Source: Patescibacteria group bacterium (GTDB taxonomy: Bacteria > Patescibacteriota > Gracilibacteria > UM-FILTER-43-11). From it: a stretch of DNA of 34,122 nucleotides. The position numbers were made by a program, and so were the translations under genes. The notes under the pieces were generated by a model, which saw only the letters and a program-made list of their open reading frames with translations, was not told the origin of the DNA and searched no databases. The stretch covers positions 1-34,122 of the forward strand of contig JAHJFD010000045.1 of the NCBI GenBank assembly GCA_018825145.1, written 5' to 3'. Positions 14,763-32,008 of the stretch are shown here, one piece after another. Each line of letters starts with the position of its first letter. Positions within the stretch are counted from its first letter, which is position 1.

Positions 14763-15029
14763 CTAATAAATCAGTTCAATGTCCAGATCGGATTGGGCCC
14801 GGCACTGGCAGCTTAGACGCTGTCCTTCGGGCAGGTCCATCATCTTTTCGGTTTCAGTCTTTTCTGTTAGTTTTCCGGAATTTACTTTTATGGCACAAGT
14901 CTGGCAAATTCCCGCCCCATTGCAGGCGGCCACAATTTCGGCACCTTGTTCTTTCAGCTGGTGCATCAGGTCTTTTTCGGAATTTTCATCTACTTTGTAA
15001 TCTTTTCCGTTTACGTGAACAGTAACCAT
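14763..15029 (-). CDS. [2Fe-2S] ferredoxin, adrenodoxin-type
   Basis: An 88-residue electron carrier. Cluster ligands: C36-x5-C42-x2-C45 (AACNGAGICQTCAIKV) and C74 in GQRLSCQC. The C-x5-C-x2-C spacing marks the vertebrate/Isc adrenodoxin type rather than the plant type (C-x4-C). The ATG at 15029 begins directly with the beta-grasp strand VTVHVNGKDYKV. The longer reading from 15119 adds a non-conserved segment and would begin upstream of the predicted transcript start (about 15048). First gene of a pair with hflX. Partners may include Fe-S assembly or the hydrogenase; the sequence does not say which. Confidence 0.92.
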   Translation of the reverse strand: MVTVHVNGKDYKVDENSEKDLMHQLKEQGAEIVAACNGAGICQTCAIKVNSGKLTEKTETEKMMDLPEGQRLSCQCRAQSDLDIELIY

Positions 15030-15054
15030 AATGTTTTTGTTAATATCAGTGGTT

Positions 15055-15083
15055 ACTTTATCAGGATTATTTAAACAGTTCAA
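15055..15083 (-). promoter_or_regulatory. Promoter of the ferredoxin-hflX unit
   Basis: Minus strand: -35 TTGAAC (15078-15083), 17-base spacer, -10 TAAAGT (15055-15060) preceded by TGA. The predicted start is about 19 bases before the ATG at 15029. Confidence 0.65.
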
Positions 15084-15100
15084 TAATTCACAAAAAAAGC

Positions 15101-15129
15101 TTGCACAAAAAATTTGCACATGCTAATAT
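15101..15129 (+). promoter_or_regulatory. Strong promoter of the candidate RNA
   Basis: -35 TTGCAC (15101-15106), exactly 17 bases, -10 TAATAT (15124-15129), with TGC immediately before the -10. One of the best promoters in the window, with no protein gene starting directly behind it. Predicted transcript start near 15136. Confidence 0.8.
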
Positions 15130-15135
15130 GTCTAT

Positions 15136-15255
15136 TGGTCGTAGATAGCATGAAAGTTTGTTACGAGCCTACTCTTGTATCGGACGTAGATAACAAACCT
15201 CTGGTGCTACGAACCACCCTCCTCCTTCTGAGCCTTCCGGTTGGAGGATTTTTTT
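15136..15255 (+). ncRNA. Candidate structured RNA of about 120 nt (sRNA or attenuator leader)
   Basis: The stretch from the predicted start at 15136 to the terminator at 15255 folds well. The outer stem is GGT-CGTAG (15137-15144) with CTACG-a-ACC (15207-15215). The inner stem is GTTTGTTA (15156-15163) with TAACAAAC (15191-15198). An apical hairpin CC-TAC / GTA-tc-GG (15168-15183) has a TCTT loop. A separate 3' terminator hairpin follows. I do not recognise it as tmRNA, 4.5S, RNase P or a known riboswitch. A 36-codon ORF from the ATG at 15150 runs through the terminator and is probably spurious. The SLH gene starts 92 bases downstream, so it may be an independent sRNA or a terminating leader for that gene. 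Confidence 0.6.
15220..15255 (+). terminator. Rho-independent terminator of the candidate RNA
   Basis: TCCTCC (15220-15225) pairs with GGAGGA (15243-15248). The stem is extended on the inside by AGCC (15231-15234) / GGTT (15239-15242) around a TTCC loop, with five unpaired bases on the 5' side. Seven T follow at once. Confidence 0.75.
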
Positions 15256-15291
15256 ATTGATTGGGAAGTTTTTTGTCACACTTTTTAAGCT

Positions 15292-15318
15292 TGTTCGTAT
15301 TCGTTAGTGAACATGTTC
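15292..15318. promoter_or_regulatory. Candidate operator: GAACATGTTC palindrome with an extra half-site
   Basis: A perfect 10-bp palindrome at 15309-15318, with another TGTTC half-site at 15292-15296, in the short leader region of the SLH gene. Half-sites are like the Gram-positive LexA box (GAAC-N4-GTTC), but the central spacing is 2 instead of 4, so LexA binding is doubtful. Confidence 0.4.
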
Positions 15319-15346
15319 TTTTTATTATTTCTAAATTAAAAATACT

Positions 15347-16339
15347 ATGAACAAGAAATTATTTTCATTTCTGGCGTTATTCTCTTTTATTGCTACATCG
15401 ATTACTCCTACATCGATAGTCTTGGCGAGCGATGATTCAAATGGCCAAGTGCCTTGCGACCAGGTATCAGAAACATACGATAGTAGATGCGAAGGCAATA
15501 ACGATCAGTGGATATTGGAAGACAAGAGACATTATTTTATTGCTGAGTTAGAGGAAATTATCAATTATATTGAAGACACTGCAGATCGCGATCTCATTCA
15601 GCTTGCAATTGAAGCCCTGCATGAGGTTGATACACTTGATGATCTGATTTTTATTCTAGATGGACTACTTGAAAAAATTCAGGTTGATCATTTTCCGTCA
15701 ATTCGCCATGATGAACCGCCAATTGAAAATCATGAGGAATCGCCAGTGGAACATTATAATAATGAACCGCCAGCAGGATACGAAGATGAAGTAATTACCG
15801 TCTTCAAAAACAATCCATTTTCTGACACTGATATCAATAGTCTTTCCGGTAAGGCTGCTGCAGAATTATACAGAAGAGCTGTAATTGGCGGTTATCCGGA
15901 CGGTGAATTTAAGGGGTTTAAGCCTGTCAATCGTGCGGAAGCCGCCAAATTCCTACTTCTTTCTCGTTTTGGCGAAGTGGAAGATGTTGCCAACAACGGT
16001 CAGTTCGGTGATGTATTAGATGGGCAGTGGTACACAAAATATGTTGTAACCTCTGCCAATAAGGGCATTATAAAAGGGTATGCTGATGGATTGTTCAAAC
16101 CGGCAGATACAGTTAATACTGCCGAATTTCTGAAGATGCTAAGTATCACCTTTGATCTGGAAGAAAATCTTCCTCATTCATTCGCAGACGTTTCCAGTGA
16201 TCAGTGGTTCGCAAAATATGCCGGAGCCGCAGCTAAATACAAGCTTTTCCCTGAAAGAACTTCAAAGCTTATGCCGGCTCAGGAGTTAACGCGTGCGGAG
16301 GTAGCTGTTGCCATCTATCAATTTCTGTCCAACAGATAA
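15347..16339 (+). CDS. Secreted SLH-domain protein
   Basis: A 330-residue exported protein. The signal peptide FSFLALFSFIATSITPTSIV ends near LAS-DDS. An N-terminal acidic helical region follows (about 45-120, with FIAELEEIINYIEDTADRDL), then a Pro/Glu-rich linker. The C-terminal half contains two or three S-layer homology repeats: GGYPDGEFKGFKPVNRAEAA, KGYADGLFKPADTVNTAEF and FADVSSDQWFAKYAGAAAKY. SLH domains bind pyruvylated wall polymers, so the protein likely attaches to the cell surface. It is followed by a large inverted repeat and the sigma factor pair, suggesting an envelope-related regulon. The leader is A-rich without a Shine-Dalgarno sequence. Confidence 0.92.
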   Translation: MNKKLFSFLALFSFIATSITPTSIVLASDDSNGQVPCDQVSETYDSRCEGNNDQWILEDKRHYFIAELEEIINYIEDTADRDLIQLAIEALHEVDTLDDLIFILDGLLEKIQVDHFPSIRHDEPPIENHEESPVEHYNNEPPAGYEDEVITVFKNNPFSDTDINSLSGKAAAELYRRAVIGGYPDGEFKGFKPVNRAEAAKFLLLSRFGEVEDVANNGQFGDVLDGQWYTKYVVTSANKGIIKGYADGLFKPADTVNTAEFLKMLSITFDLEENLPHSFADVSSDQWFAKYAGAAAKYKLFPERTSKLMPAQELTRAEVAVAIYQFLSNR

Positions 16340-16381
16340 CAAAGAATAAGTTGTACTGGAAGTATTATTTCAACTAATCTA

Positions 16382-16432
16382 GGGGGGCGTCCGCCGCGCC
16401 TGTCTGCCGGTAGGCAGGGCGGACCTCCCCCC
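16382..16432. repeat. Nested inverted repeat containing a palindromic repeat element
   Basis: The outer arms GGGGGG (16382-16387) and CCCCCC (16427-16432) enclose GTCCGCC (16389-16395) / GGCGGAC (16418-16424) and a core CCTGTCTGCC-GGTAGGCAGG (16399-16418). The core differs at two positions from the perfect element at 17794-17817, and both changes leave G-U pairs in RNA. It sits between the SLH gene and the sigma factor, 19 bases before its start, without a T-run. It could block the start, protect mRNA ends, or be a mobile repeat. Confidence 0.8.
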
Positions 16433-16450
16433 GAGTGAAAAAAGTAGATA

Positions 16451-16984
16451 ATGGAAGAAAGAACTTCATTTAGCGCTTATTATAATCAATATAAACACAA
16501 GGTTTTTAGTTTTTTCTTCTATAGATTAAATGGTGACAGAGCGACTGCAGAAGATTTAACAGGTGATGTTTTTGTTAAGGCATATGAGCACTTTGATTCG
16601 TTTGACCACTCTAAAAAATTCTATTCATGGATCTTTGCCATCGTTCGCAATACTTTAATTGATTATTTTAGGACACAAAAAAATTATGCTGATCTGGAAG
16701 AGGGATTAGAAGTGTCTGATCAAAATTCGGAAGCCTTCGTCAGAAATGTAGACAATAATATGAAGATTGAGAAGGTTCATAAGGTACTCAGTGAGATTCC
16801 CGCCTTCCAAAAAGAGTGCATCTTGTTAAAGTTTTTAGGAGATCTGACAACCAAAGAGATTGCACTCGTTACCGAAAAATCAGAGGACAATATCAGGCAA
16901 TCGATATCACGCGCTCTAAGTAAGTTACGGGCAAGAAAAGAACTATATTATGTATTATTGTTATGTATTAGCGCATTACTATAA
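16451..16984 (+). CDS. ECF-type RNA polymerase sigma-70 factor
   Basis: A 177-residue sigma factor of regions 2 and 4 only. Region 2 spans about residues 10-75 (AEDLTGDVFVKAYEHFDSFD, SWIFAIVRNTLIDYFR) and region 4 about 115-165 (FQKECILLKFLGDLTTKEIA, DNIRQSISRALSKLR). An unusual short hydrophobic tail (YYVLLLCISALL) follows region 4. The stop overlaps the start of the next gene by one base (TAATG at 16981-16985), so the two are coupled, as with sigma/anti-sigma pairs. Targets are unknown; no strongly distinct promoter class stands out nearby. Confidence 0.95.
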   Translation: MEERTSFSAYYNQYKHKVFSFFFYRLNGDRATAEDLTGDVFVKAYEHFDSFDHSKKFYSWIFAIVRNTLIDYFRTQKNYADLEEGLEVSDQNSEAFVRNVDNNMKIEKVHKVLSEIPAFQKECILLKFLGDLTTKEIALVTEKSEDNIRQSISRALSKLRARKELYYVLLLCISALL

Positions 16985-18441
16985 TGAATAAGTCATCAGC
17001 AAAATTTAGACTCCCTATAAAGAGACTGTCAATTGCAGGGGATTTAAAGATACGTGCCAGGCTTTTTCAGGCCAGAGTACGCAGAAGTATACAATTTGGA
17101 CTTTCCCGCACATTATTGACTCGTATGTTTGCTCCTGTTTTAGCGGTTTTGATTATTTTGCCATTCGCAAAGATTGGCATAGATGGTTATGTTTACGCTA
17201 ATGAAAGCATTGTGCGTGGTGATTTTTTATACGGGTGGAAACGTGATATTGAGCTCGATAAGCTTCACGCCATGAGGAGTCCGGTTAACAGGGCTAATTA
17301 CTTCCTGCAGCTTTCGGAGTGGAGAATGAGGGAGGCGGATGTTGCCTTTGGAAGAGAAATGCGCGGTGAGTATAGTTTTTTGATTCCGTCTGCCAAGGCT
17401 GATGATGTGATAATCAGACTATCTGTTGGTAGTATATCGGAAGGGTTGATAGCTGAGGGTGTGCTGTTCTTTCAGAAGTCTATTTACGAAACAAAAAAGA
17501 TACCAAAGAATAAGCAATCGGTTGTACTTAGAAATATTAAAAAGACGCTAGCTAGCAATGCCTTTTTACTAGATGAAATGGCTGGGCAGATTACTGAAGA
17601 AAATAGTAAAAAGATTATCACCCCTATCAAAAATCAGTATCTTGAGATTGCCAGAGATTGGAAAATGGAAGCTTTCCCCAAGGAGCCGGTTCCACAAGAG
17701 CCGGTTCCACAAGAGCCGGTTCCACAAGAGCCACTGCCGAATGAGGTGACGCCATCGGAGCCCACCCTGGCGGATCAACCTGTCGAAGCTGAAGCCCTGC
17801 CTGCCGGCAGGCAGGGCGAAGGGCAGGAGGAAATGTCCTTTGTTGAGCCGGAGATGGTGGATTTTAGGTTTTATGGTGATAAGTGGAGGGAGGTGAATGA
17901 GCATCATGATAGATTTGATCAGGAAATAAAGCATTTTGAAGAAAATGATTGGGATTGGAATGAGGAGGAGATCAGACACTTTGAGGAAGAGGAGAGGCGT
18001 CTTAAAGAAGAAGAGGAAATGAGGCGTCGTGAGGCTGAAATGAGGAGATTTGAAGAGGAGTTCTTCCAGGAAGCTGAAAACCTGAAAAAGGACTGGTCTG
18101 ATGAATTTGCGCATGAAGAAGAGATTATTCAACCTGAGCCACCTCGTGAAGAAATCGTGCCACATCCCGAAGAACAACATCCCGAAGAACCACATCCTGA
18201 AGAGTCTCTGTCGGGTGGCTGCCCCGAGGAATTTCATCCTGTTTGCGGAGAGTTTCCATCACCTGACAAGTCAGGACCAAGGCAGGAAACCTTTCCTAAT
18301 GAATGTGAGCTTGTGAAGAGCGGCGCACACTTTTTGCATGGAGGGGAATGCGAATTTATTGCAAAAGAAGAGCTACGACCTCACGAGGAAAAAATGCGAC
18401 CACCTGAAGAGGAATTGCCACCACATGAGAATTTTGAATAG
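16984..18441 (+). CDS. Membrane partner of the ECF sigma factor: DUF5667-like, coiled coil, Kazal-like tail
   Basis: A 485-residue probable anti-sigma or surface regulator. A basic N-terminal region (1-42) is followed by one membrane helix (MFAPVLAVLIILPFAKIGID, about 48-67). An outside region (about 75-225) reads SIVRGDFLYGWKRDIELDK and RANYFLQLSEWRMREADVA, as in DUF5667 proteins that follow CPR sigma factors. A Pro/Glu linker with three EPVPQ units comes next, then a Glu/Arg-rich coiled coil (about 290-385). The Kazal-like segment has cysteines 413, 421, 441 and 456, with HPVCG and TFPNEC. An in-frame palindromic repeat at 17794-17817 codes for ALPAGRQG within the linker. The classic anti-sigma zinc motif is absent, so sigma binding is inferred from coupling. 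Confidence 0.8.
   Translation: MNKSSAKFRLPIKRLSIAGDLKIRARLFQARVRRSIQFGLSRTLLTRMFAPVLAVLIILPFAKIGIDGYVYANESIVRGDFLYGWKRDIELDKLHAMRSPVNRANYFLQLSEWRMREADVAFGREMRGEYSFLIPSAKADDVIIRLSVGSISEGLIAEGVLFFQKSIYETKKIPKNKQSVVLRNIKKTLASNAFLLDEMAGQITEENSKKIITPIKNQYLEIARDWKMEAFPKEPVPQEPVPQEPVPQEPLPNEVTPSEPTLADQPVEAEALPAGRQGEGQEEMSFVEPEMVDFRFYGDKWREVNEHHDRFDQEIKHFEENDWDWNEEEIRHFEEEERRLKEEEEMRRREAEMRRFEEEFFQEAENLKKDWSDEFAHEEEIIQPEPPREEIVPHPEEQHPEEPHPEESLSGGCPEEFHPVCGEFPSPDKSGPRQETFPNECELVKSGAHFLHGGECEFIAKEELRPHEEKMRPPEEELPPHENFE
17683..17727 (+). repeat. 15-base tandem repeat, three units, in coding sequence
   Basis: Three identical GAGCCGGTTCCACAA units (17683-17697, 17698-17712, 17713-17727), then a degenerate start of a fourth. 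They encode EPVPQ repeats in the linker of the sigma-partner protein. Exact identity suggests recent slippage expansion. Confidence 0.9.
17794..17817. repeat. 24-base perfect palindromic repeat element inside a gene
   Basis: A perfect palindrome with arms GCCCTGCCTGCC (17794-17805) and GGCAGGCAGGGC (17806-17817). Its length is a multiple of three and it is read as ALPAGRQG in the sigma-partner protein. A diverged copy forms the core of the inverted repeat at 16399-16418. From memory, GCCTGCCGGCAGGC palindromes and the peptide LPAGRQG recur in CPR genomes, pointing to a dispersed repeat family. Confidence 0.85.
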
Positions 18442-22360: not shown

Positions 22361-25300
22361 ATGAAGAAAAAGATCCTAAAAATATCGCTCAAAGCACTGC
22401 TTGTGATTCTGATCTTTCTGATCAGTTTCCACTTTGCCGATGCTATTGCTCAGGGGCTGGAGTCGGGCGGCACAGGTCTTCAGATTGCGGGTACCGAAGA
22501 TGTCGTAATCAGCGGCGATATTGAAAAAAGGCCTCTTGGGGATGTGGTGAAGGCAATGGTCAATTATTTCATCGGCTTTCTTGGCTTTATTGCCGTTCTG
22601 ACTTTTGTTTACGCGGGTGTGCTCTGGGTGGTTTCAGGTGGTAACGATGAGCAGATCACAAAAGCCAGAAAGATCATGACTTATTCGTCTTTGGGCCTGG
22701 TGGTGGTTATTCTTTCATTTTCAATTGTACGCTTTATTACCAGTTCCGCCGGAGGCGGGCAGAGTTGTTCGACAACGGCGGATTGTGCCACCGGTTTCAT
22801 TTGTAATAGTCAAAATCTCTGTGAATCTGCAGGTGGCGAGGGCGGTGGGGCCATTTGCAGCAGTAATGCCGATTGCGCGACGGGGTTTGTATGTACCAGC
22901 GGTATCTGTAACATTCCTCAGGGTACCGGCTGTCTTTCCAGCCTGGATTGCGGACCGGGGCAATATTGTTCTTTTGGGGGGGCCTGCATCAGTGGCGCCA
23001 GCCTTGTCTGTAAAGATAATTCTGATTGCCCTTCGCCAAAGCAATGTGATCCATTCGGGTTTTGCCATAATCCGGCTTCCGGCTCCGGTTCCTCCTGTAC
23101 CGGCAACCCGGACTGCCCTACCGGTTACGTGTGTAACGGTGATTCAAATGTCTGTGAAATTCAGGGGACCGGCGGTCAAACCGGTACCGGCAGTGTGAGC
23201 GGCGGTGAAACGCAGGCTCTCAGCGAAGAAGCCATAAAATCGATTGATGAAACTGTGAACGGACTTGGCAGTGATCTTGCAGATATTCAAACGGAAATTA
23301 ACAAGCTTTCACAGGAAGATCAGGATGCGCTCAATAATTCCTTAAAAGCCGGAACCCTGGCCGATAAGATGGCAGGCGTTAATTCTCTTATCGCGGGTAG
23401 CGGAAATCCGGATGTTATTGCTGTTCTGGAAAAACTGCTCAGCGGTCTTCAGAGGCTTCAGCTTCTTCGGGAGGAGATGGACGATTTACGGGCAGTCATG
23501 CCGGAATCGGAAGAATCCATTTCGGCCTGGGACAAGGCTTCCGAGGCGCTTGACGAACTTATTGACGATCCTGTGAGCAGTATCAAGCTCAGGCGTTTTG
23601 AAAACATGTACCGTAATCTGAAAGATCTTATCCGGCAATTTCCTGTAGTTCAGTCCAGAATCAAGGCGGCGCCGGGTGAAGGCAATGTACCGTTCACGGT
23701 CACATTTGACGGCCTGGATTCCATTGATCCCACAGGCGGTACGGTTAGCGATTACAAATGGTCTTTTCTGGATAATTCAGGGAACCTTGTATCGCTTGGC
23801 AATTCGCCGGTAGTCATTCATGAATTCACTGAGCCAAATACCTATAGCATCCGGCTTCAGGTATCCACATCTAATAAGGACGCTTCCGGATATAAGACGG
23901 CTATGGACGGTATTTCCACTGTCAGAATCAAGGCCAGTCCGCCTGCTTCACGGGTGGCCTTCAGAATAAACGGAACGGAGGTTCGTGATGTTCATCATGT
24001 AACCCTGGAGGAGGCCAAAGCAGGTATCAGTTTTGATCCTTCTATCACGGTTCCGGCCCTCGGGCGAACCATCGAAAAGTATGAATGGTTTTACGGAGAT
24101 ACCGGTGATGAGGAGCGCAGTGTTCCGACTACCGTGGTTCATAGTTACAAGAAAGGGGGCGAATATTATGTGACGCTTAAGGTAACTGACAGCGCAGGGC
24201 AGTCAGATAAACGTGTGATTAAGCTTATTGTTAAGTCTCTGGCGGCAAGTATGGAATTTATGCCGGAAGAAGGTAACGTTAATACTGAATTCCGGTTCCG
24301 CGGAATCAACAGCCGTTCCGATGCCGGCAGTATTGATGAATACAAGTGGCAGATTACGGACGCGCAGGGTTTAGCGGTGGCAACCAGTACGCAGGAAAAT
24401 TTTTATCATACTTTCAGCATGCCCGGCAAATACAATGTGGAATTGACGGTTTCCGATACGGCCGGAGCTCAGGATAAAGGAATGCGCGTGCTCAACGTGT
24501 TTTCCCGTAAACCGGTTGCCAGTTTTGACTACAGCAAGCCCGCCCCCAATCATCCGAACACAGTCGAATTCAGCGCGGCCGGAAGTTACGACCCTGACCA
24601 GGGGGACCGTATTAATTATTCGTGGGATTTTAACGGTGACGGACAGTTCGAAGTGGTAGACAGCCAGGATGTAAGCGTTACCCAGACTTATAGCAGAGTT
24701 GGTGAGTATAAGGTAGTTTTACAAGTAATGGATTCTTTCGGACAAAGGAATCAGACGGAGAAGACGGTTTCGATTGATTCGGTTCTGGCCGGAGATGCCA
24801 TTATTGATAAGAAAGCCGCTCAGGTAGGTGAAGATATTACTTTTAAGGCTGATTGTAAGAACGCTATAGCATACCTGTGGGAATTCGGCGATGGTTTAAC
24901 GGCCAGTACCGAAAAAAATACCGTTACCCATAAGTATGACAAGAAAGGAAAATATAACGTTAAACTGAATTTCTTTGACCGGGATGACAACGATAATTTT
25001 GACACATCCTTTGTTTTGATCGGAGAAGGGGAAAGTCCCATTGCCGTGGCGGATGTTCTTGTGGACGGACGTAGTCAGCTGATTGTGGAAGATCTTTGCG
25101 GTGATGGGGTTGGCGGCTACATTGTAACCCGATCCGATAACCTTTCGCTTAGCGCCAGAAATTCTATCAATCGTGACGGCTCCAGCCGTTTACTTGTTTA
25201 CGATTGGAAGTTTTCCGGCGGGACCCGCAGTGATAAGCGTGATCTTACTCATCGTTTTGCTGAAATCAATCCATCTGATCAGTGCTCGACGGTTTCATTG

Positions 25301-26629
25301 GTGGTTCGTGATGAAATCAGCGGGCAGGCGAGTGATGAAGATACTTTTTATTTTAAGGTCGTCAATAACCTTCCCGGTATCACCGACTTTGTTGTCGAAA
25401 GCGAACCGGACAAGGAACTTATAACGCCCAGCAAAGTGAGGCTTAAAGTGACAGGTGCCAAGGATGAGGATGGCCAGATCAAGAAATATAAATGGTGGTA
25501 TTACCGTGAAGGATTTGAAGCCGAGCGTTTGGGGCTTCATTCCACAACTTCTCCGGAAACAGAAATGGTGATTACGGCACAGGGGCAGGCGGGCGTAAAA
25601 AACCGCTATTTCTTTGGAGTCGAGATTACTGACAACGACCACGGTATTTTTGACAGCACGGAGCGTTTTGGTGAAACAAGTTACCTTGATGTGACCAATG
25701 GCCCGAATCTTTCACCTGTGGCGGAATTTTCGGTCGACAAAACGACTATTGCGGTGGGTGATTCCATTTCTTTTGTTTCTCAGTCTTACGATCCGCAGGG
25801 GGATACTTTCCCCGGCAACTCTTTTCAGTGGGATTTTGACGGGGACGGAGCTTTTGATGATTCGACCAGCGGTCCGCAAGTGAATCGTCAGTTTAATACT
25901 CCCGGTGAATACGAGGTCAGACTCAAAGTTATTCATCGCGGACTTTCTTCCACAGTCCGCCGCACTGTTTTTGTTGAACCAACAAACAGCTATCCGCAGG
26001 CGGCCTTTGTTTACGAAGTAAACGGCAAAACTGTCAAATTCAGCGGCAATGCATCCCGTTATGATCCTGATCTGACTGACACTTCACTTCGCTTTAAATG
26101 GGATTTCGATGTACAAAAAGATTCGGACGGCAATGGCGTCAATGATGATGACGCTCAGTCAACGGAGATTGCCCCGACTTTCACCTTCGATACCGCTGAC
26201 CTGTACCGTGTAAAGCTTACAGTGCTGGACAGCCTTGGTAATGCGGGTGTGGTGGTGCGGGACGTCAATTTAAACCTCAGCGAATCACAAAGAGCCCAGA
26301 ACACGTATCGTTCATTAAAACTTTCAGCGCCCAATCAGTCCCTTACGACCCTTGATCTTACTATCTCGCCATTTAACATTTCGCGCGGTGAAACAGCGGA
26401 TATTATGGCAAGAGTTACAAATGCTGATAACTCGGGTTACTACGGAGATGTTTTCTTTGAAGTGCTTGAGGGGACCGGAGAATTCACGCCAAATCCTGTT
26501 TCGGCACTTGATGGCACAGCGACAGCCGTATTTACCGCTGTTGATTCAGGATCAGTACGCATTCGGGTAAAAGCTACTGGTACTTATTACGGTGATCTTA
26601 CTGAAGAAATAATTCTTAAAGTGGAATAA
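22361..26629 (+). CDS. Giant surface protein: pilin-like hairpin, Cys-rich repeats, about nine PKD domains
   Basis: 1422 residues. Signal helix 7-25. Pilin-like hairpin 71-126 (FIGFLGFIAVLTFVYAGVLW, then SGGNDEQITKARKI). Five Cys-rich repeats at 136-265, each C-x5-C-x5-C-x4-6-C (for example CSTTADCATGFICNSQNLC). A helical region lies at about 280-430. About nine PKD/Ig-like domains follow (about 435-1310), some canonical (SWDFNGDGQFEVV, LWEFGDG, QWDFDGDGAFDD) and some diverged. The last segment (about 1325-1422) resembles a Big-1/invasin Ig-like domain (ISPFNISRGETADIMARVTN). It is likely anchored by the hairpin with a long stalk outside the cell, for adhesion. The gap to the pilin gene is 12 bases, consistent with one operon. 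Confidence 0.88.
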   Translation: MKKKILKISLKALLVILIFLISFHFADAIAQGLESGGTGLQIAGTEDVVISGDIEKRPLGDVVKAMVNYFIGFLGFIAVLTFVYAGVLWVVSGGNDEQITKARKIMTYSSLGLVVVILSFSIVRFITSSAGGGQSCSTTADCATGFICNSQNLCESAGGEGGGAICSSNADCATGFVCTSGICNIPQGTGCLSSLDCGPGQYCSFGGACISGASLVCKDNSDCPSPKQCDPFGFCHNPASGSGSSCTGNPDCPTGYVCNGDSNVCEIQGTGGQTGTGSVSGGETQALSEEAIKSIDETVNGLGSDLADIQTEINKLSQEDQDALNNSLKAGTLADKMAGVNSLIAGSGNPDVIAVLEKLLSGLQRLQLLREEMDDLRAVMPESEESISAWDKASEALDELIDDPVSSIKLRRFENMYRNLKDLIRQFPVVQSRIKAAPGEGNVPFTVTFDGLDSIDPTGGTVSDYKWSFLDNSGNLVSLGNSPVVIHEFTEPNTYSIRLQVSTSNKDASGYKTAMDGISTVRIKASPPASRVAFRINGTEVRDVHHVTLEEAKAGISFDPSITVPALGRTIEKYEWFYGDTGDEERSVPTTVVHSYKKGGEYYVTLKVTDSAGQSDKRVIKLIVKSLAASMEFMPEEGNVNTEFRFRGINSRSDAGSIDEYKWQITDAQGLAVATSTQENFYHTFSMPGKYNVELTVSDTAGAQDKGMRVLNVFSRKPVASFDYSKPAPNHPNTVEFSAAGSYDPDQGDRINYSWDFNGDGQFEVVDSQDVSVTQTYSRVGEYKVVLQVMDSFGQRNQTEKTVSIDSVLAGDAIIDKKAAQVGEDITFKADCKNAIAYLWEFGDGLTASTEKNTVTHKYDKKGKYNVKLNFFDRDDNDNFDTSFVLIGEGESPIAVADVLVDGRSQLIVEDLCGDGVGGYIVTRSDNLSLSARNSINRDGSSRLLVYDWKFSGGTRSDKRDLTHRFAEINPSDQCSTVSLVVRDEISGQASDEDTFYFKVVNNLPGITDFVVESEPDKELITPSKVRLKVTGAKDEDGQIKKYKWWYYREGFEAERLGLHSTTSPETEMVITAQGQAGVKNRYFFGVEITDNDHGIFDSTERFGETSYLDVTNGPNLSPVAEFSVDKTTIAVGDSISFVSQSYDPQGDTFPGNSFQWDFDGDGAFDDSTSGPQVNRQFNTPGEYEVRLKVIHRGLSSTVRRTVFVEPTNSYPQAAFVYEVNGKTVKFSGNASRYDPDLTDTSLRFKWDFDVQKDSDGNGVNDDDAQSTEIAPTFTFDTADLYRVKLTVLDSLGNAGVVVRDVNLNLSESQRAQNTYRSLKLSAPNQSLTTLDLTISPFNISRGETADIMARVTNADNSGYYGDVFFEVLEGTGEFTPNPVSALDGTATAVFTAVDSGSVRIRVKATGTYYGDLTEEIILKVE

Positions 26630-26637
26630 ACGATTCA

Positions 26638-28893
26638 ATGCTCAAAAAACTTTTAAAATTATCGGCCATTCTGATTCTTTTGATTTTTGTGAGCGCATCC
26701 AATGCGTTGGCCAGCGGAAAAATGGAAGTTAAAATGGGTGATAAAGTAACCCTTCAGGCGGATGAGATTACCGGAGGAACCTTTAAATGGGTGGCCAAAA
26801 AGGGCAAAGAAATCATCACCACTCAGGGAACCTCTATTTTTAATTACACCTTTAATGAACAGGGGGAATATGATGTCACCCTGACCATTACTGATGCCGC
26901 CGGCGATTCTAAAAAAACCACCATCAAAGTGCTGGTTGGTGATCGGTATTCCGTTTTGGCGGATACCGGACTTGCTGAAGGCGAACAGATTGGCGTGTCC
27001 CTTTCGGTTGGTCTTGAAACGCTTCCGACCAAAACTTCTCAGCGCAGTGTGCATATTCTTGGCGATGAAGGGCGGGTAGTTTTCGATATCGGTGTTCGGG
27101 ATGATATTCTGGAATATCGTATCGATCGGAATATTTTTGTTGATTCCGATGGAAACGGCATTGCAAATGACGATATCGACAATTCTGATCACAGTTCCTA
27201 CCTTTTGGGCGGAGTGTGGCAAACCAAATATCTGGCTTCCGAGTCCAATAAAATTGCCGCCGAAGTGACTGTGGTAAATAAACAGGGGCAGAAGGCCAAG
27301 ACACAGATAGAAATAATTTTTGAGCCGGTTCCTGGCAAGGAAGGAAATGTGGTAGCTGTTCTTGATACTTTACCTATTCTGGATTCGGAGGATAAAAAAA
27401 TCTATGTTTACGACGAACTGGATACTGTTGCTTTTTACTCCCGCCGCAGTCAGGGGGATATTATTGAGTATCGAATCGACAAAAACATTTTTGTTGATTC
27501 GGACGGTGATGGCAATCCGGCCAATGATATCGATAACCGTACTGACAACTCCTTTAAAACCGGCGACGTCTGGACTACCGCCTACGAAAAAACGGATGAT
27601 CAGATCATTGCTCAGCTGATTGTGGTAGGAAAGGGCGGAGGCGGCAGCCGTATTCAACGGGAAATCAAATTCACCGAAAGGCCGGTTTTTACGGTTTCCG
27701 AGGTAACGGAAGCGGAATCGCCCATTCAGCTTAAAGCTGACAAGGAATTCGTTCAGAAGGGTGACCCCATCAATTTTACCGTGGAAGGCCTTGTCCAGGA
27801 TCTCAGCAGTTACATTTTTGACTGGGATTTTAACGGTGACGGCGAAGTCGATCAGACTGTGGAAGGCGACAATACGGTTTCTTACATTTATGACACTCCC
27901 GGCATTCAGCTGGCCAAAGTGCGCGTGCAGGATGATGCCGGTAATGAAGCTAATTTCAGTCTGGACGTTTTGGTGAAAGATACCGCCGTAACGACAGCGG
28001 ACTTTGAATATACCGTTGATGGAGGCGTGGTGACATTTGCCAACCTTTCAGTTGTCAGTCCTAACCTGACCAGTAAGATCCTTTCTTACACCTGGAGTTT
28101 TGGCGATACTGATCCGGCAAGCTATGAGGCGCAGAAAGATCAGATAGGCGTGCAGAATCCTGCCTATACATACGGCAAGTCCGGCACTTATATTGTTACC
28201 CTTACAGTGGTTGATTCTGATCAGGTGAGTAGCACTAAAACGCAGGAAGTGGTCATTGAGGGGGTCGCGGGAGAAGAAGGTGTACCGGCTGAAGTAGGTG
28301 AAGAGGCTGAGGTATCCGGTGAGGGCGGATCAATCATCTGGGCGATTGTGAAAGTCATCTTTTACATTATTCTGGCAGTTATTCTTTTGGTACTGCTTAT
28401 TGTTGTCGGCTTACTGGCCTTCCTTAAAATCCAGCATCCCGATCTGGTGTTTGAAGAACTTATTGATGAGCTCAGGATTAAGATTTTAGGCATGATCGGA
28501 GTTCATGAAATGGTTGAACCCGGCACCCAGCCTGAGGTTGGACCACAACAGAAGACAATTCCTGAAAGACCAGTTCAGGCCAAACCTGCTCCTGTTGAAG
28601 AGCCTGCTGAGGAACCAGCTGAAGAAGTAGGTGAAGAACCTGAGCCGGAAGCTCCCGCTGAAGAACCTCCGCTAGCCAAGGTGGAAGGCCCTGTTCCTGA
28701 CTGGTTAAAAAGCACCACACCTGCCGCAGTTACCAAAGCTGAACCGGAAGTGATTGAGGGTGAAGTTGAGGAAGAGCCTGTTGCTGAAGATGAGCCAGTT
28801 CCTGAGAAACCCGCCGCTGAACAGGAAGGTGAGGGTGGTAAAGGGGCCAACAAAGAAGAAGGGCCTGTGCCGGACTGGCTGAAAAACGCTTAA
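26638..28893 (+). CDS. PKD surface protein with C-terminal anchor and VPDWLK tail
   Basis: 751 residues. Signal peptide about 1-25 (AILILLIFVSASNALAS). A PKD-like domain lies at 30-105. Two tandem homologous modules (about 115-230 and 235-350) each carry EYRID[RK]NIFVDSDG[ND]G with an Asp-rich, EF-hand-like calcium loop. Two more PKD domains follow (about 360-550: IFDWDFNGDGEVDQ, YTWSFGDTDP). One membrane helix spans about 565-597, then a 150-residue Pro/Glu-rich tail expected inside the cell. EGPVPDWLK occurs twice in the tail, at about 682-691 and at the extreme C-terminus (741-749). The gap to the preceding gene is 8 bases. Opposite topology to its PKD neighbours. Likely a cell-surface protein that binds a partner inside through the VPDWLK motif. 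Confidence 0.87.
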   Translation: MLKKLLKLSAILILLIFVSASNALASGKMEVKMGDKVTLQADEITGGTFKWVAKKGKEIITTQGTSIFNYTFNEQGEYDVTLTITDAAGDSKKTTIKVLVGDRYSVLADTGLAEGEQIGVSLSVGLETLPTKTSQRSVHILGDEGRVVFDIGVRDDILEYRIDRNIFVDSDGNGIANDDIDNSDHSSYLLGGVWQTKYLASESNKIAAEVTVVNKQGQKAKTQIEIIFEPVPGKEGNVVAVLDTLPILDSEDKKIYVYDELDTVAFYSRRSQGDIIEYRIDKNIFVDSDGDGNPANDIDNRTDNSFKTGDVWTTAYEKTDDQIIAQLIVVGKGGGGSRIQREIKFTERPVFTVSEVTEAESPIQLKADKEFVQKGDPINFTVEGLVQDLSSYIFDWDFNGDGEVDQTVEGDNTVSYIYDTPGIQLAKVRVQDDAGNEANFSLDVLVKDTAVTTADFEYTVDGGVVTFANLSVVSPNLTSKILSYTWSFGDTDPASYEAQKDQIGVQNPAYTYGKSGTYIVTLTVVDSDQVSSTKTQEVVIEGVAGEEGVPAEVGEEAEVSGEGGSIIWAIVKVIFYIILAVILLVLLIVVGLLAFLKIQHPDLVFEELIDELRIKILGMIGVHEMVEPGTQPEVGPQQKTIPERPVQAKPAPVEEPAEEPAEEVGEEPEPEAPAEEPPLAKVEGPVPDWLKSTTPAAVTKAEPEVIEGEVEEEPVAEDEPVPEKPAAEQEGEGGKGANKEEGPVPDWLKNA

Positions 28894-28905
28894 GGCAGGA
28901 ATATT

Positions 28906-29730
28906 TTATATGGCGTGCAGAGTCGGTATTCGTTTTGAGTAAGTGGAAATGGATTTGATTCCCGCTTTTTTGGCGATTTCCATAGCTTCCTGAATGAATT
29001 GGCCGACATCTTTTGCCTTATGGGCGTCTGAACCGAAAGTGAAGTTATTTATGCCCACTTCCACAGCCCAGTTCAGTATGACGGGGTGTGGGAACAGCTC
29101 TTTACATTTTGTATCCATGCACTTGGTGTTGAGCTCCAGGCCTATTCCTTTTTCTTTCATTCTTTCCAGAATCGGGATGATGCGGTCCTTGTATTTTTCC
29201 GGCTGGAATGGGCCGTAAAATTTGTGGCCAAATTTCTTGTTGATATCGAAATGAGCTACGACGTCAAGATGTCCCCATTCGACTAGGCTCATCATATTAT
29301 CGAAATAAGCGTTGTAGGCTGTCTGTTCATCCGTTTTTGAATAGAGTTCGTCGGCAAACAGATGAGAGGAAATGATGACGCTTCTGACGATGTGAACGGA
29401 TCCGAGGATGAAATCAAAGTCAGTCTCTTTAACGAACTCAGTCAGCTCATCCATCCAATTCTCGACGTATTCCAGTTCCACTCCAAAACCAATACTGATG
29501 CCGGGGTGTTCTTTTTGAACATCATCGAGTTCGGCCTTAATTTTTCTGAATCTGTCCCTAGCTTCTTTGCTTCTGAAGATGCCTTTTCCTGTGTTTTTGT
29601 CGTGCAGTTCAGGATGATTCGTAATGCAGATCTCTTTTATACCCATTTCAATGGCCTTTTCGACAATCTTTCGGGTGTCTTCCCGGGAGTCGGGGGAAAA
29701 GTGGTTGTGAAGGTGGTAATCGATGAGCAT
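28906..29730 (-). CDS. PHP-domain phosphoesterase (histidinol-phosphatase-like)
   Basis: A 274-residue cytoplasmic metal-dependent phosphoesterase. The N-terminal HxH motif is in LIDYHLHNHFSPDSRED; further metal ligands are in ITNHPELHD, FGVELEYVEN, GSVHIV, VVAHFDINKKFGHKF and GSDAHKAKDVGQ. Layout and length match HisK/HisJ-type PHP phosphatases. No other histidine genes are near, so it may act on another phosphate ester. It is on the opposite strand between two PKD genes, converging with the gene at 26638 and diverging from that at 29774 through overlapping -10 boxes. Confidence 0.9.
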   Translation of the reverse strand: MLIDYHLHNHFSPDSREDTRKIVEKAIEMGIKEICITNHPELHDKNTGKGIFRSKEARDRFRKIKAELDDVQKEHPGISIGFGVELEYVENWMDELTEFVKETDFDFILGSVHIVRSVIISSHLFADELYSKTDEQTAYNAYFDNMMSLVEWGHLDVVAHFDINKKFGHKFYGPFQPEKYKDRIIPILERMKEKGIGLELNTKCMDTKCKELFPHPVILNWAVEVGINNFTFGSDAHKAKDVGQFIQEAMEIAKKAGIKSISTYSKRIPTLHAI

Positions 29731-29756
29731 TTTTGGCTTTGATTAATTGACGGCGT

Positions 29757-29769
29757 TGCTATAATTATA
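29757..29769. promoter_or_regulatory. Palindromic bidirectional -10 region
   Basis: TATAATTATA at 29760-29769 is a perfect palindrome giving -10 TATAAT on the plus strand (29760-29765, preceded by TGC) and on the minus strand (29764-29769). The two boxes share two bases. The plus-strand start would be near 29772, only 2 bases before the ATG at 29774; the minus-strand start would be near 29757, ahead of the ATG at 29730. Confidence 0.65.
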
Positions 29770-29773
29770 TACA

Positions 29774-32008
29774 ATGAGCCTTGAAAAAATAACAAAAAAC
29801 AAAATGCTAGGAGATGTCGATCAAAATAAGAATGTAAGTCCTCAGCCTGTGACTCCGGTTAATCCCGAGATGGCGGCTGTTCAGGCGAATCAGCCTGCGC
29901 CCGCGGCCACACCGGCTCCCGCTGTAAAAACAGCGGCAAGGCCTGGTGCGGTGCCTCCGAAAAAAATAGGCAAAGAGAAGATAGAAAAGTCAAAAAGCCG
30001 TTTTATTATGGGCTGTATGGGGGGATTCATCTTCCTTTTTGTTGTTTTTATTATTCTTATGGTTCTGATGATTTCCCGGAGCGGGGCGTCAAACCCTGTG
30101 ATGCAGGCCTTCGGGCTTGATCCGGGGGGTGTCAGGAATTTTCTCCAGGGGGTTGTTGGTTTTGCTTTTGGCATACTTTCGCTATTATTCCTCATCCTTC
30201 TTATTATCGGGCTATTCAGATTTCTCGGGGCTCAGAAATCTGACAAAGAAAAGCGGAGCAGGAACCTGAGAATGATGACGGTCAGTTCGGTGATGCTGGT
30301 TTTGATGGTGGGGATTTGGGTTGTGCTTGCCAACTACATCAGCCGCATTGAAATTGCCGCGGAAAAAATTATCGCTGAAATTGTGGTTGAGGAACCTAAA
30401 GATCTGAATAACCTGACGGCTCCGGTGGAAATAAAGTTCAGTGCCATCAATGTTGCCAAGGCGCTTGAAATGGGCGGTATCCGCATATCAAGTATGAACT
30501 GGGATCTGGATGGTGACGGCGAGTACGAAACGCCGGTTACCAGCCCTGAAGTCACTCACCTGTATGCCAGAAAGGGAACTTATACTGTTGGCTTACAGGT
30601 AAAGGTGGCTGGTGAAGATACTTATCGTGAGCCTTACACGCAGATTATTTCCATTCCTAACGCGGCCTTTGGGGCTGAACCTTCTACGGGTACGGCTCCG
30701 CTTGCAGTGGAGTTTGATGCCAGCGTTATTATTTCCAAATCCAATGTGGCCAGTCTGGACTGGGATTTTGATGGCGATGGCGTTTACGAACTGGAGGGTC
30801 CCGATAATCTTAGACCGCGATATACTTTCAGTCAGATTGGAGTTTATAAGGTCCATTTAAGAGCAATCGACAAGAATGACAATGTTGAAAACTACTATCG
30901 AAACATTGAGGTGACGGTTACCGACAAGCCTATTGTTTCTGCTGTAATCGATGTAACCCCCGGGCTTAGGGGGCCTATTCCTTTGCAGCTTCGCTTTGAT
31001 GCCAGTCGCTCTGTAGGACTTAAGGGGAAGATTATCAAATATCAGTGGGATTTTGGAGACGGTTCAGATCTGCAGTCCGGAAAGAGCACAACCCATGTAT
31101 TTAATAAGCCGGATTTTTATTCCGTGACGCTTAGTGTTGAAGATGAGCTCGGCAACAAAGCTACGAGTTCGGTCGAAATTGAGGCTCAGGCCATTTCTTC
31201 CGTCCCAGAGGCTGCCATCAGCTCCACGCCGGCGTTCTCCGCGGGACAGCCACTAACCGGTACGCTTCCGTTTAAAGTTGAATTTGACGCGTCGGGTTCC
31301 CAGGATGCCGACAATGATATTGTCCAGTATGAATGGGATTTTGACGGAGACGGAATAGTCGATCAGGAAGGGAAAAAAGTAAGTCATACCTTTGAAACAG
31401 CCGGCACTTATACGGTTGGTCTGACTGTCGAGGATTCAGAGGACCAAAAAAGTACCGCCTCTATGCAGGTGCTTGTGCAGGAGCCAGGTGTTCTTGCCGT
31501 TATTACCGCGACCCCCGAAGAAGGCACGGCACCGCTGACAGTAAAATTTGACGGCTCTTCATCCAGTGTTTATCAGGGGAATATTGTCAGTTACGAATGG
31601 GATTTTGGTGATGCCAGTCCGAAGACGATCACCGGTGCCATTGTTTCCCATAAATACACTTCGGTGGGGTCATACACAGCCAAGCTTAAAGTTCTTACCA
31701 ATAACAATGAATCCGCTTCCACATCGAAAATTATTTATGTCCGGGAAATTCCTTTAAAGGCCTGCTTTACACCAAGCAGGATGAGCGGGCTGGCTCCGCT
31801 GACCGTTGCTTTTGATTCCAAGTGTTCAACAGGGACCGTGTCCGGTTACAGCTGGCAATTCGGTGATGGTGTTGAAAGCAGCAGTAAGAATCCCACGCAT
31901 ACTTTTGAGTTCCCCGGTTCTTACACGGTGGTTCTTGAAGTGGCTGACAGCAAAAATAATGTGAGCACCTATCAGGAAATTATTGTGGCCGAAGGCGATG
32001 TTCAGTAA
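29774..32008 (+). CDS. PKD surface protein with N-terminal pilin-like membrane region
   Basis: 744 residues. A Pro/Ala-rich N-terminal region (about 20-65) is followed by three helices at about 77-101, 126-150 and 167-188. The last two resemble the pilin-like hairpin: a helix, a charged loop (GAQKSDKEKRSRNLRMM), then a helix. Six canonical PKD domains then run from about 205 to 740, with repeats such as MNWDLDGDGEYET, LDWDFDGDGVYEL, YQWDFGDGSD, YEWDFDGDGIVD, YEWDFGDAS and YSWQFGDGVE. They are more regular than those of the gene at 22361. The PKD part should face outward. The promoter at 29760 allows either near-leaderless translation from 29774 or use of Met11 (29804), whose A-rich leader looks like those of other genes here. 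Confidence 0.88.
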   Translation: MSLEKITKNKMLGDVDQNKNVSPQPVTPVNPEMAAVQANQPAPAATPAPAVKTAARPGAVPPKKIGKEKIEKSKSRFIMGCMGGFIFLFVVFIILMVLMISRSGASNPVMQAFGLDPGGVRNFLQGVVGFAFGILSLLFLILLIIGLFRFLGAQKSDKEKRSRNLRMMTVSSVMLVLMVGIWVVLANYISRIEIAAEKIIAEIVVEEPKDLNNLTAPVEIKFSAINVAKALEMGGIRISSMNWDLDGDGEYETPVTSPEVTHLYARKGTYTVGLQVKVAGEDTYREPYTQIISIPNAAFGAEPSTGTAPLAVEFDASVIISKSNVASLDWDFDGDGVYELEGPDNLRPRYTFSQIGVYKVHLRAIDKNDNVENYYRNIEVTVTDKPIVSAVIDVTPGLRGPIPLQLRFDASRSVGLKGKIIKYQWDFGDGSDLQSGKSTTHVFNKPDFYSVTLSVEDELGNKATSSVEIEAQAISSVPEAAISSTPAFSAGQPLTGTLPFKVEFDASGSQDADNDIVQYEWDFDGDGIVDQEGKKVSHTFETAGTYTVGLTVEDSEDQKSTASMQVLVQEPGVLAVITATPEEGTAPLTVKFDGSSSSVYQGNIVSYEWDFGDASPKTITGAIVSHKYTSVGSYTAKLKVLTNNNESASTSKIIYVREIPLKACFTPSRMSGLAPLTVAFDSKCSTGTVSGYSWQFGDGVESSSKNPTHTFEFPGSYTVVLEVADSKNNVSTYQEIIVAEGDVQ

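Follow-up and report, generated by a model that had tools for sequence, protein, structure and literature searches.

The stretch of DNA analysed here (34,122 nucleotides; hereafter the window) contains a gap between two divergent genes in which a sequence-only reading had placed an unclassified structured RNA. Is there a genuine RNA gene in this gap and, if so, how might such an RNA act? The window is contig C52 of a 1.16 Mb genome, 93% complete, of an ultra-small bacterium that has not been cultured. The gap has the size and setting described: it spans 317 bp (15030-15346), with a 2Fe-2S ferredoxin gene on the minus strand on one side (14763-15029; Pfam Fer2, 1.4e-13) and an SLH-protein gene on the plus strand on the other. 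The divergent ferredoxin gene, upstream of and outside the RNA, marks the syntenic site in the family.

Promoter, terminator and gene boundaries

The RNA gene occupies positions 15135-15255 of the plus strand (about 120 nt); its start is placed from the promoter and the structure, and its end from the terminator. Read directly from the plus strand, the promoter consists of a -35 element, TTGCAC (15101-15106), and, 17 bp away, an extended -10 element, TGC-TAATAT (15121-15129; TGC at 15121-15123, TAATAT at 15124-15129). This promoter had already been recognised from the window, and it is conserved in homologues. A promoter is found at a fixed distance in 22 of the 23 other homologues that have upstream DNA, and TTGC occupies the same -35 place in 19 of the 22 that fit the promoter pattern. 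The usual form in homologues is TTGCA, a spacer of 16-18 bp and TGNTANNNT, with the RNA beginning 8-10 bases later; nearly all homologues have TTGC-16 to 18-TANNNT, mostly with TGN before TANNNT, 8-10 nt 5' of the conserved CGTAGATA. A generic promoter scan did not list the window promoter; this is explained by its weak match to the consensus.

The RNA body is followed by a C-rich linker (ACCCTCC.., 15216-15225, plus strand), whose conservation is restricted to the window's own family, and by an intrinsic terminator (15220-15255, plus strand) with a TCCTCC / GGAGGA stem and then seven T at 15249-15255, as first read. A hairpin and then a T run lie 3' of the RNA body in every homologue. A small ORF or leader peptide was also sought among the homologues; no shared or conserved ORF was found, and a small protein or leader peptide is rejected on this ground. 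Covarying structure, promoter and terminator occur together in several genomes, as is characteristic of a free-standing structured ncRNA gene.

A long hairpin with two inverted modules

The segment of the window that holds the RNA has a fold energy of -37.2 kcal/mol, where shuffled sequences average -27.3 (z -2.7; 2 of 200 shuffles fold equally well), the RNA body alone gives a fold energy z of -2.25, and single-sequence folding of several members gives only a modest gain over shuffles. Taken alone, the fold energy is only suggestive of a structured RNA; the case was therefore built comparatively.

Compensatory changes in relatives had been named beforehand as a check, and they are found: the helices covary in 24 sequences. 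In alignment A3, in which these sequences are fitted to the model structure and 20 pairs are counted, 96.0% of cells are paired (78.9% in shuffles) and 13 of the 20 pairs show two-sided changes. The covariation score is 0.529 against 0.183 in shuffles, and no shuffle out of 500 attains it; when the partner is slid by one to three columns, the signal collapses. Since A3 is fitted to the model structure, an independent MAFFT alignment (A1) matters; it has 96.7% of cells paired and a two-sided change in 9 pairs. In a tree-aware null devised here, in which substitutions are redistributed on the inferred tree (60 replicates), the top seven column pairs are all structural and five have E <= 0.05. 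One of the seven, 37-63, is absent from the model used for the alignment. As judged by comparison of sequences, covariation proves a hairpin structure beyond chance, and the locus is almost certainly a genuine structured RNA gene.

The hairpin begins with a basal helix, whose 5' arm GGUCG (15137-15141, plus strand, as are all elements below) pairs with 15210-15215 and leaves A15212 bulged; in homologue L042 the pair 15139/15213 has changed on both sides from U-A to C-G. Next comes the UAGA bulge of module 1 (15142-15145), invariant in 24 of 24 sequences. The outer helix has the 5' arm UAGCAU (15146-15151), which pairs with 15204-15209; its sequence is free and it covaries strongly, with columns 13-90, 14-89 and 15-88 exceeding every null value and 16-87 at E 0.017. 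On the 3' side the outer and basal arms together read GUGCUACGAACC (15204-15215), within which A15212 is the bulged A of module 1. The inner helix has the 5' arm GUUUGUUACG (15156-15165), which pairs with 15185-15186 and 15191-15198. Just 3' of this arm, A15166 is the bulged A of module 2, and beyond it lies the apical loop (15167-15184), which varies in length (8-27 nt) and sequence among homologues. The UAGA bulge of module 2 (15187-15190) is likewise invariant, and its register is set by the adjoining pair 15163/15191.

This register differs from the one first proposed. At column pair 33-70 (15163/15191, beside the inner bulge) the partners change together from A-U to G-C (AU 17, GC 6, GU 1), which makes the inner bulge UAGA rather than GAUA. 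In the outer module either register fits the data, and the same UAGA register is presumed there by analogy. In the outer stem so corrected, C15140-G15211 and G15141-C15210 pair, UAGA 15142-15145 bulges out, and pairing restarts at U15146-A15209 and continues to U15151/G15204. The sequence-only reading had proposed two stems, 15137-15144 (GGTCGTAG) with 15207-15215 (CTACGAACC) and 15156-15163 (GTTTGTTA) with 15191-15198 (TAACAAAC). The arms of both are present; the outer stem shifts register around the UAGA bulge, and the mirror-image bulge at 15187-15190 had been overlooked. An unclassified structured RNA is supported, while its pairing register had been wrong and the twin modules missed.

The conserved letters are almost wholly two copies of one module, CG-UAGA-YR / YR-CG-A, made up of a four-base UAGA bulge, two C-G pairs and an opposed bulged A. 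The copies stand in inverted symmetry, one at the base of the hairpin and one near its tip. The helix between them is free in sequence and nearly constant in length (14/15): the 5' spacer is 13-17 nt, mostly 14, and the 3' spacer 14-16 nt, mostly 15. Module duplication and spacing are shown by the alignment.

Distribution and novelty of the family

A sequence search of 98 relatives returned clear copies within the window's family, plus a single one from a different family. Covariance models built from ten homologues (R1) and then from 24 (R2) detected the RNA in 24 and 25 genomes, respectively, of the 353 in the class (Peregrinibacteria/Gracilibacteria); the carriers belong to 8 families and have exactly one copy each. 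The window's own family carries it in 12 of 18 genomes. Members score at least 48.8 bits, while the best scores of 15 negatives re-searched with laxer filters are 15-18 bits, with E above 1; presence is therefore all or none. Outside the class, no match was obtained in a 380-genome sample of the phylum. When 84,980 species genomes were scanned for an exact pattern, 15 stretches were returned; the informative names among them are Candidatus Peregrinibacteria, Candidatus Gracilibacteria and Patescibacteria MAGs, and the others are named 'bacterium' only. A mobile-element, plasmid or phage origin is rejected, as searches of viral contigs, plasmids and phages gave no match to the RNA.

Members of the window's family mostly have the RNA close to a 2Fe-2S ferredoxin gene, with exonuclease III downstream of the RNA. 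The window differs in that the RNA and exonuclease III are separated by a block that includes the SLH protein and an ECF-type sigma factor; this block is an insertion confined to the window genome among the genomes compared. This block (15347-18441) also encodes an acidic protein without a Pfam match, and is missing at the syntenic site of relatives. Other families have differing neighbours, including tRNAs and convergent genes. In a congener (G002) no RNA is present and about 80 bp separate the ferredoxin gene from exonuclease III, the two facing each other, so the RNA is dispensable. The named genomes are MAGs, in which single absences may be assembly gaps, except in G002, which is a natural empty site.

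The sequence-only reading had matched the RNA to no class familiar to it, which agrees with Rfam 15: at the gathering threshold a search of the window gave 0 matches, relaxing to E of up to 10 added nothing beyond chance matches, and the same search of 20 homologous loci returned tRNAs only. No description of this RNA was found in the literature. It is well supported that window 15135-15255 founds a new RNA family, absent from Rfam.

Two local resemblances are rejected. The RNA has the word GUAGAU in common with the Cas12a crRNA repeat; here there is no UCUAC partner 5', the conserved partner being UACGA or UGCGA, and no cas genes were noticed among neighbouring ORFs. Likewise, CGUAGAUA is presumably a segment of the 690 region of 16S rRNA, but the genome's own 16S does not contain CGTAGANA in the 1.5 kb searched, which argues against mimicry of that segment.

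Possible modes of action

Invariant bulges at a fixed distance on a helix of free sequence point to a recogniser that has a pair of equivalent sites, the simplest case being a dimeric RNA-binding protein. The RNA forms one long hairpin with two inverted modules, 5'-CG[UAGA]YR.../...YRCG[A]-3', 14/15 nt apart, followed by the terminator hairpin. A dimeric RNA-binding protein, or one bound twice, would recognise the two modules as identical sites, and the intervening helix, free in sequence and fixed in length, would serve as a ruler. The RNA may titrate or modulate this protein, or may gain stability from it. We put at about even the chance that this free-standing gene encodes such a trans-acting RNA, with its transcription, protein binding and regulatory outcome all predicted from sequence. 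More tentatively, it may be the RNA half of an undescribed RNP regulator in the Candidate Phyla Radiation, acting as a ruler-like hairpin with two inverted UAGA-bulge sites and a putative dimeric protein as partner, in bacteria that nearly lack Shine-Dalgarno signals and in which searches did not find Hfq.

The proposed mechanism resembles that of CsrB/RsmZ-type RNAs, which sequester protein and whose motifs are read by a dimeric protein. In both, a single small RNA carries copies of the same motif at defined distances. CsrB/RsmZ-type RNAs have GGA in hairpin loops, whereas the motif here lies within a helix and consists of a UAGA bulge opposite an A, and the two sites are inverted and on opposite strands. 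A conserved GGA was not found in alignment A3.

A protein-binding RNA is favoured over two other readings, the first of which is a trans-acting antisense sRNA, in which the C-rich linker (ACCACCCTCCT) or the apical loop would pair with mRNAs and the hairpin would stabilise the molecule. The gene shares with Hfq-dependent trans-acting sRNAs an intergenic position, a sigma-70-like promoter and a Rho-independent terminator; CACCCTCCT (or CACCTCCTT) is also retained in most members of the window's family, while other free positions are scrambled. However, linker and loop are unconserved outside that family, and the tightly constrained internal structure with a loop of free sequence is the reverse of a seed-based sRNA. 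In addition, the CCTCC of the window sits within the terminator stem. The 16S rRNA keeps CACCTCCTTT, yet genes are almost without Shine-Dalgarno motifs: 0 of 24 window genes have one by eye, and 1 of 154 genes does in related loci (L077-L100), where the counts rest on mechanically chosen start codons. Anti-Shine-Dalgarno action is rejected, since despite CACCTCCTTT in 16S the genes almost never bear the partner motif. Hfq was found in 0 of 39 relatives' genomes, in which the controls were detected. Because loop and 3' linker are unconserved, Shine-Dalgarno motifs nearly absent and Hfq not found, a protein-binding RNA is preferred and antisense action is unlikely. Within the window's family, the 3' linker resembles the 3' tail of 16S rRNA (window 15217-15225; L086, which has CACCTCCTT, L078 and L085).

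Next in rank, and also improbable, is a free-standing metabolite-sensing or self-dimerising RNA, whose modules would dock together or form a small-molecule pocket. Invariant bulges and a fixed spacer would likewise be needed for this; neither a cis-regulated gene nor any conserved alternative pairing able to switch the terminator was seen, and sensing RNAs nearly always act in cis.

There is very little chance that the RNA is a housekeeping RNA, such as 6S or SRP RNA, that has diverged too far for the Rfam models. Like 6S RNA (RF00013), which acts by imitating a protein-binding site for RNA polymerase, it is a small hairpin RNA, free-standing and present once per genome, with a promoter of its own; unlike 6S, it has a body of about 85 nt, no large central bubble and no covariance match. 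6S identity is rejected, as RF00013 has no match at the locus, and a separate 6S gene is present over the Rfam cut-off in the RNA's own genome (G000:C51:14323-14485, 50.9 bits) and in several other carriers. The 6S gene of the window's genome has relatives in many genomes of the class.

With bacterial SRP RNA the resemblance is in size and a single long hairpin. SRP RNA itself was undetected in genomes of the class (39 searched with RF00169, the window's own included, and 20 with RF01854) in which the controls were detected, and this absence would leave room for a diverged form. SRP identity is nevertheless rejected: neither RF00169 nor RF01854 matches, there is no GGAA-capped Ffh-binding domain, and an SRP-like GGAA loop with AGG/AGCA sides is not among the invariant positions. 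The distribution is also patchy (25 of 353 genomes, and missing at the congener's syntenic site); an RNA in about 7% of class genomes is not a core RNP. As a separate matter, the class may have lost SRP RNA or may carry a strongly diverged form of it.

Least probable, and contradicted by the homologues, is a cis-acting leader, attenuator or riboswitch of the SLH-protein gene, which is co-directional with the RNA and 92 bp downstream of it. The SLH block is an insertion, and what follows the RNA in relatives is exonuclease III, a tRNA or some unrelated gene, in many cases encoded on the other strand at a distance of 3-50 bp. As downstream genes vary in identity and strand with no constant co-directional one, the RNA is free-standing and not a leader.

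Little seems to have been published on structured RNAs special to Peregrinibacteria/Gracilibacteria, and nothing relevant was found in the literature. The family offers a secondary structure backed by comparison, a motif that recurs in precise form and, within a single genus, a natural contrast between carrier and non-carrier. With the UAGA-bulge motif as a specific bait, an RNA-binding protein could be sought in this lineage, in which searches did not find Hfq. Elsewhere in the window, positions 22361-32008 encode, one after another, very large proteins that are secreted or membrane-bound and, by eye, look rich in PKD-like repeats.
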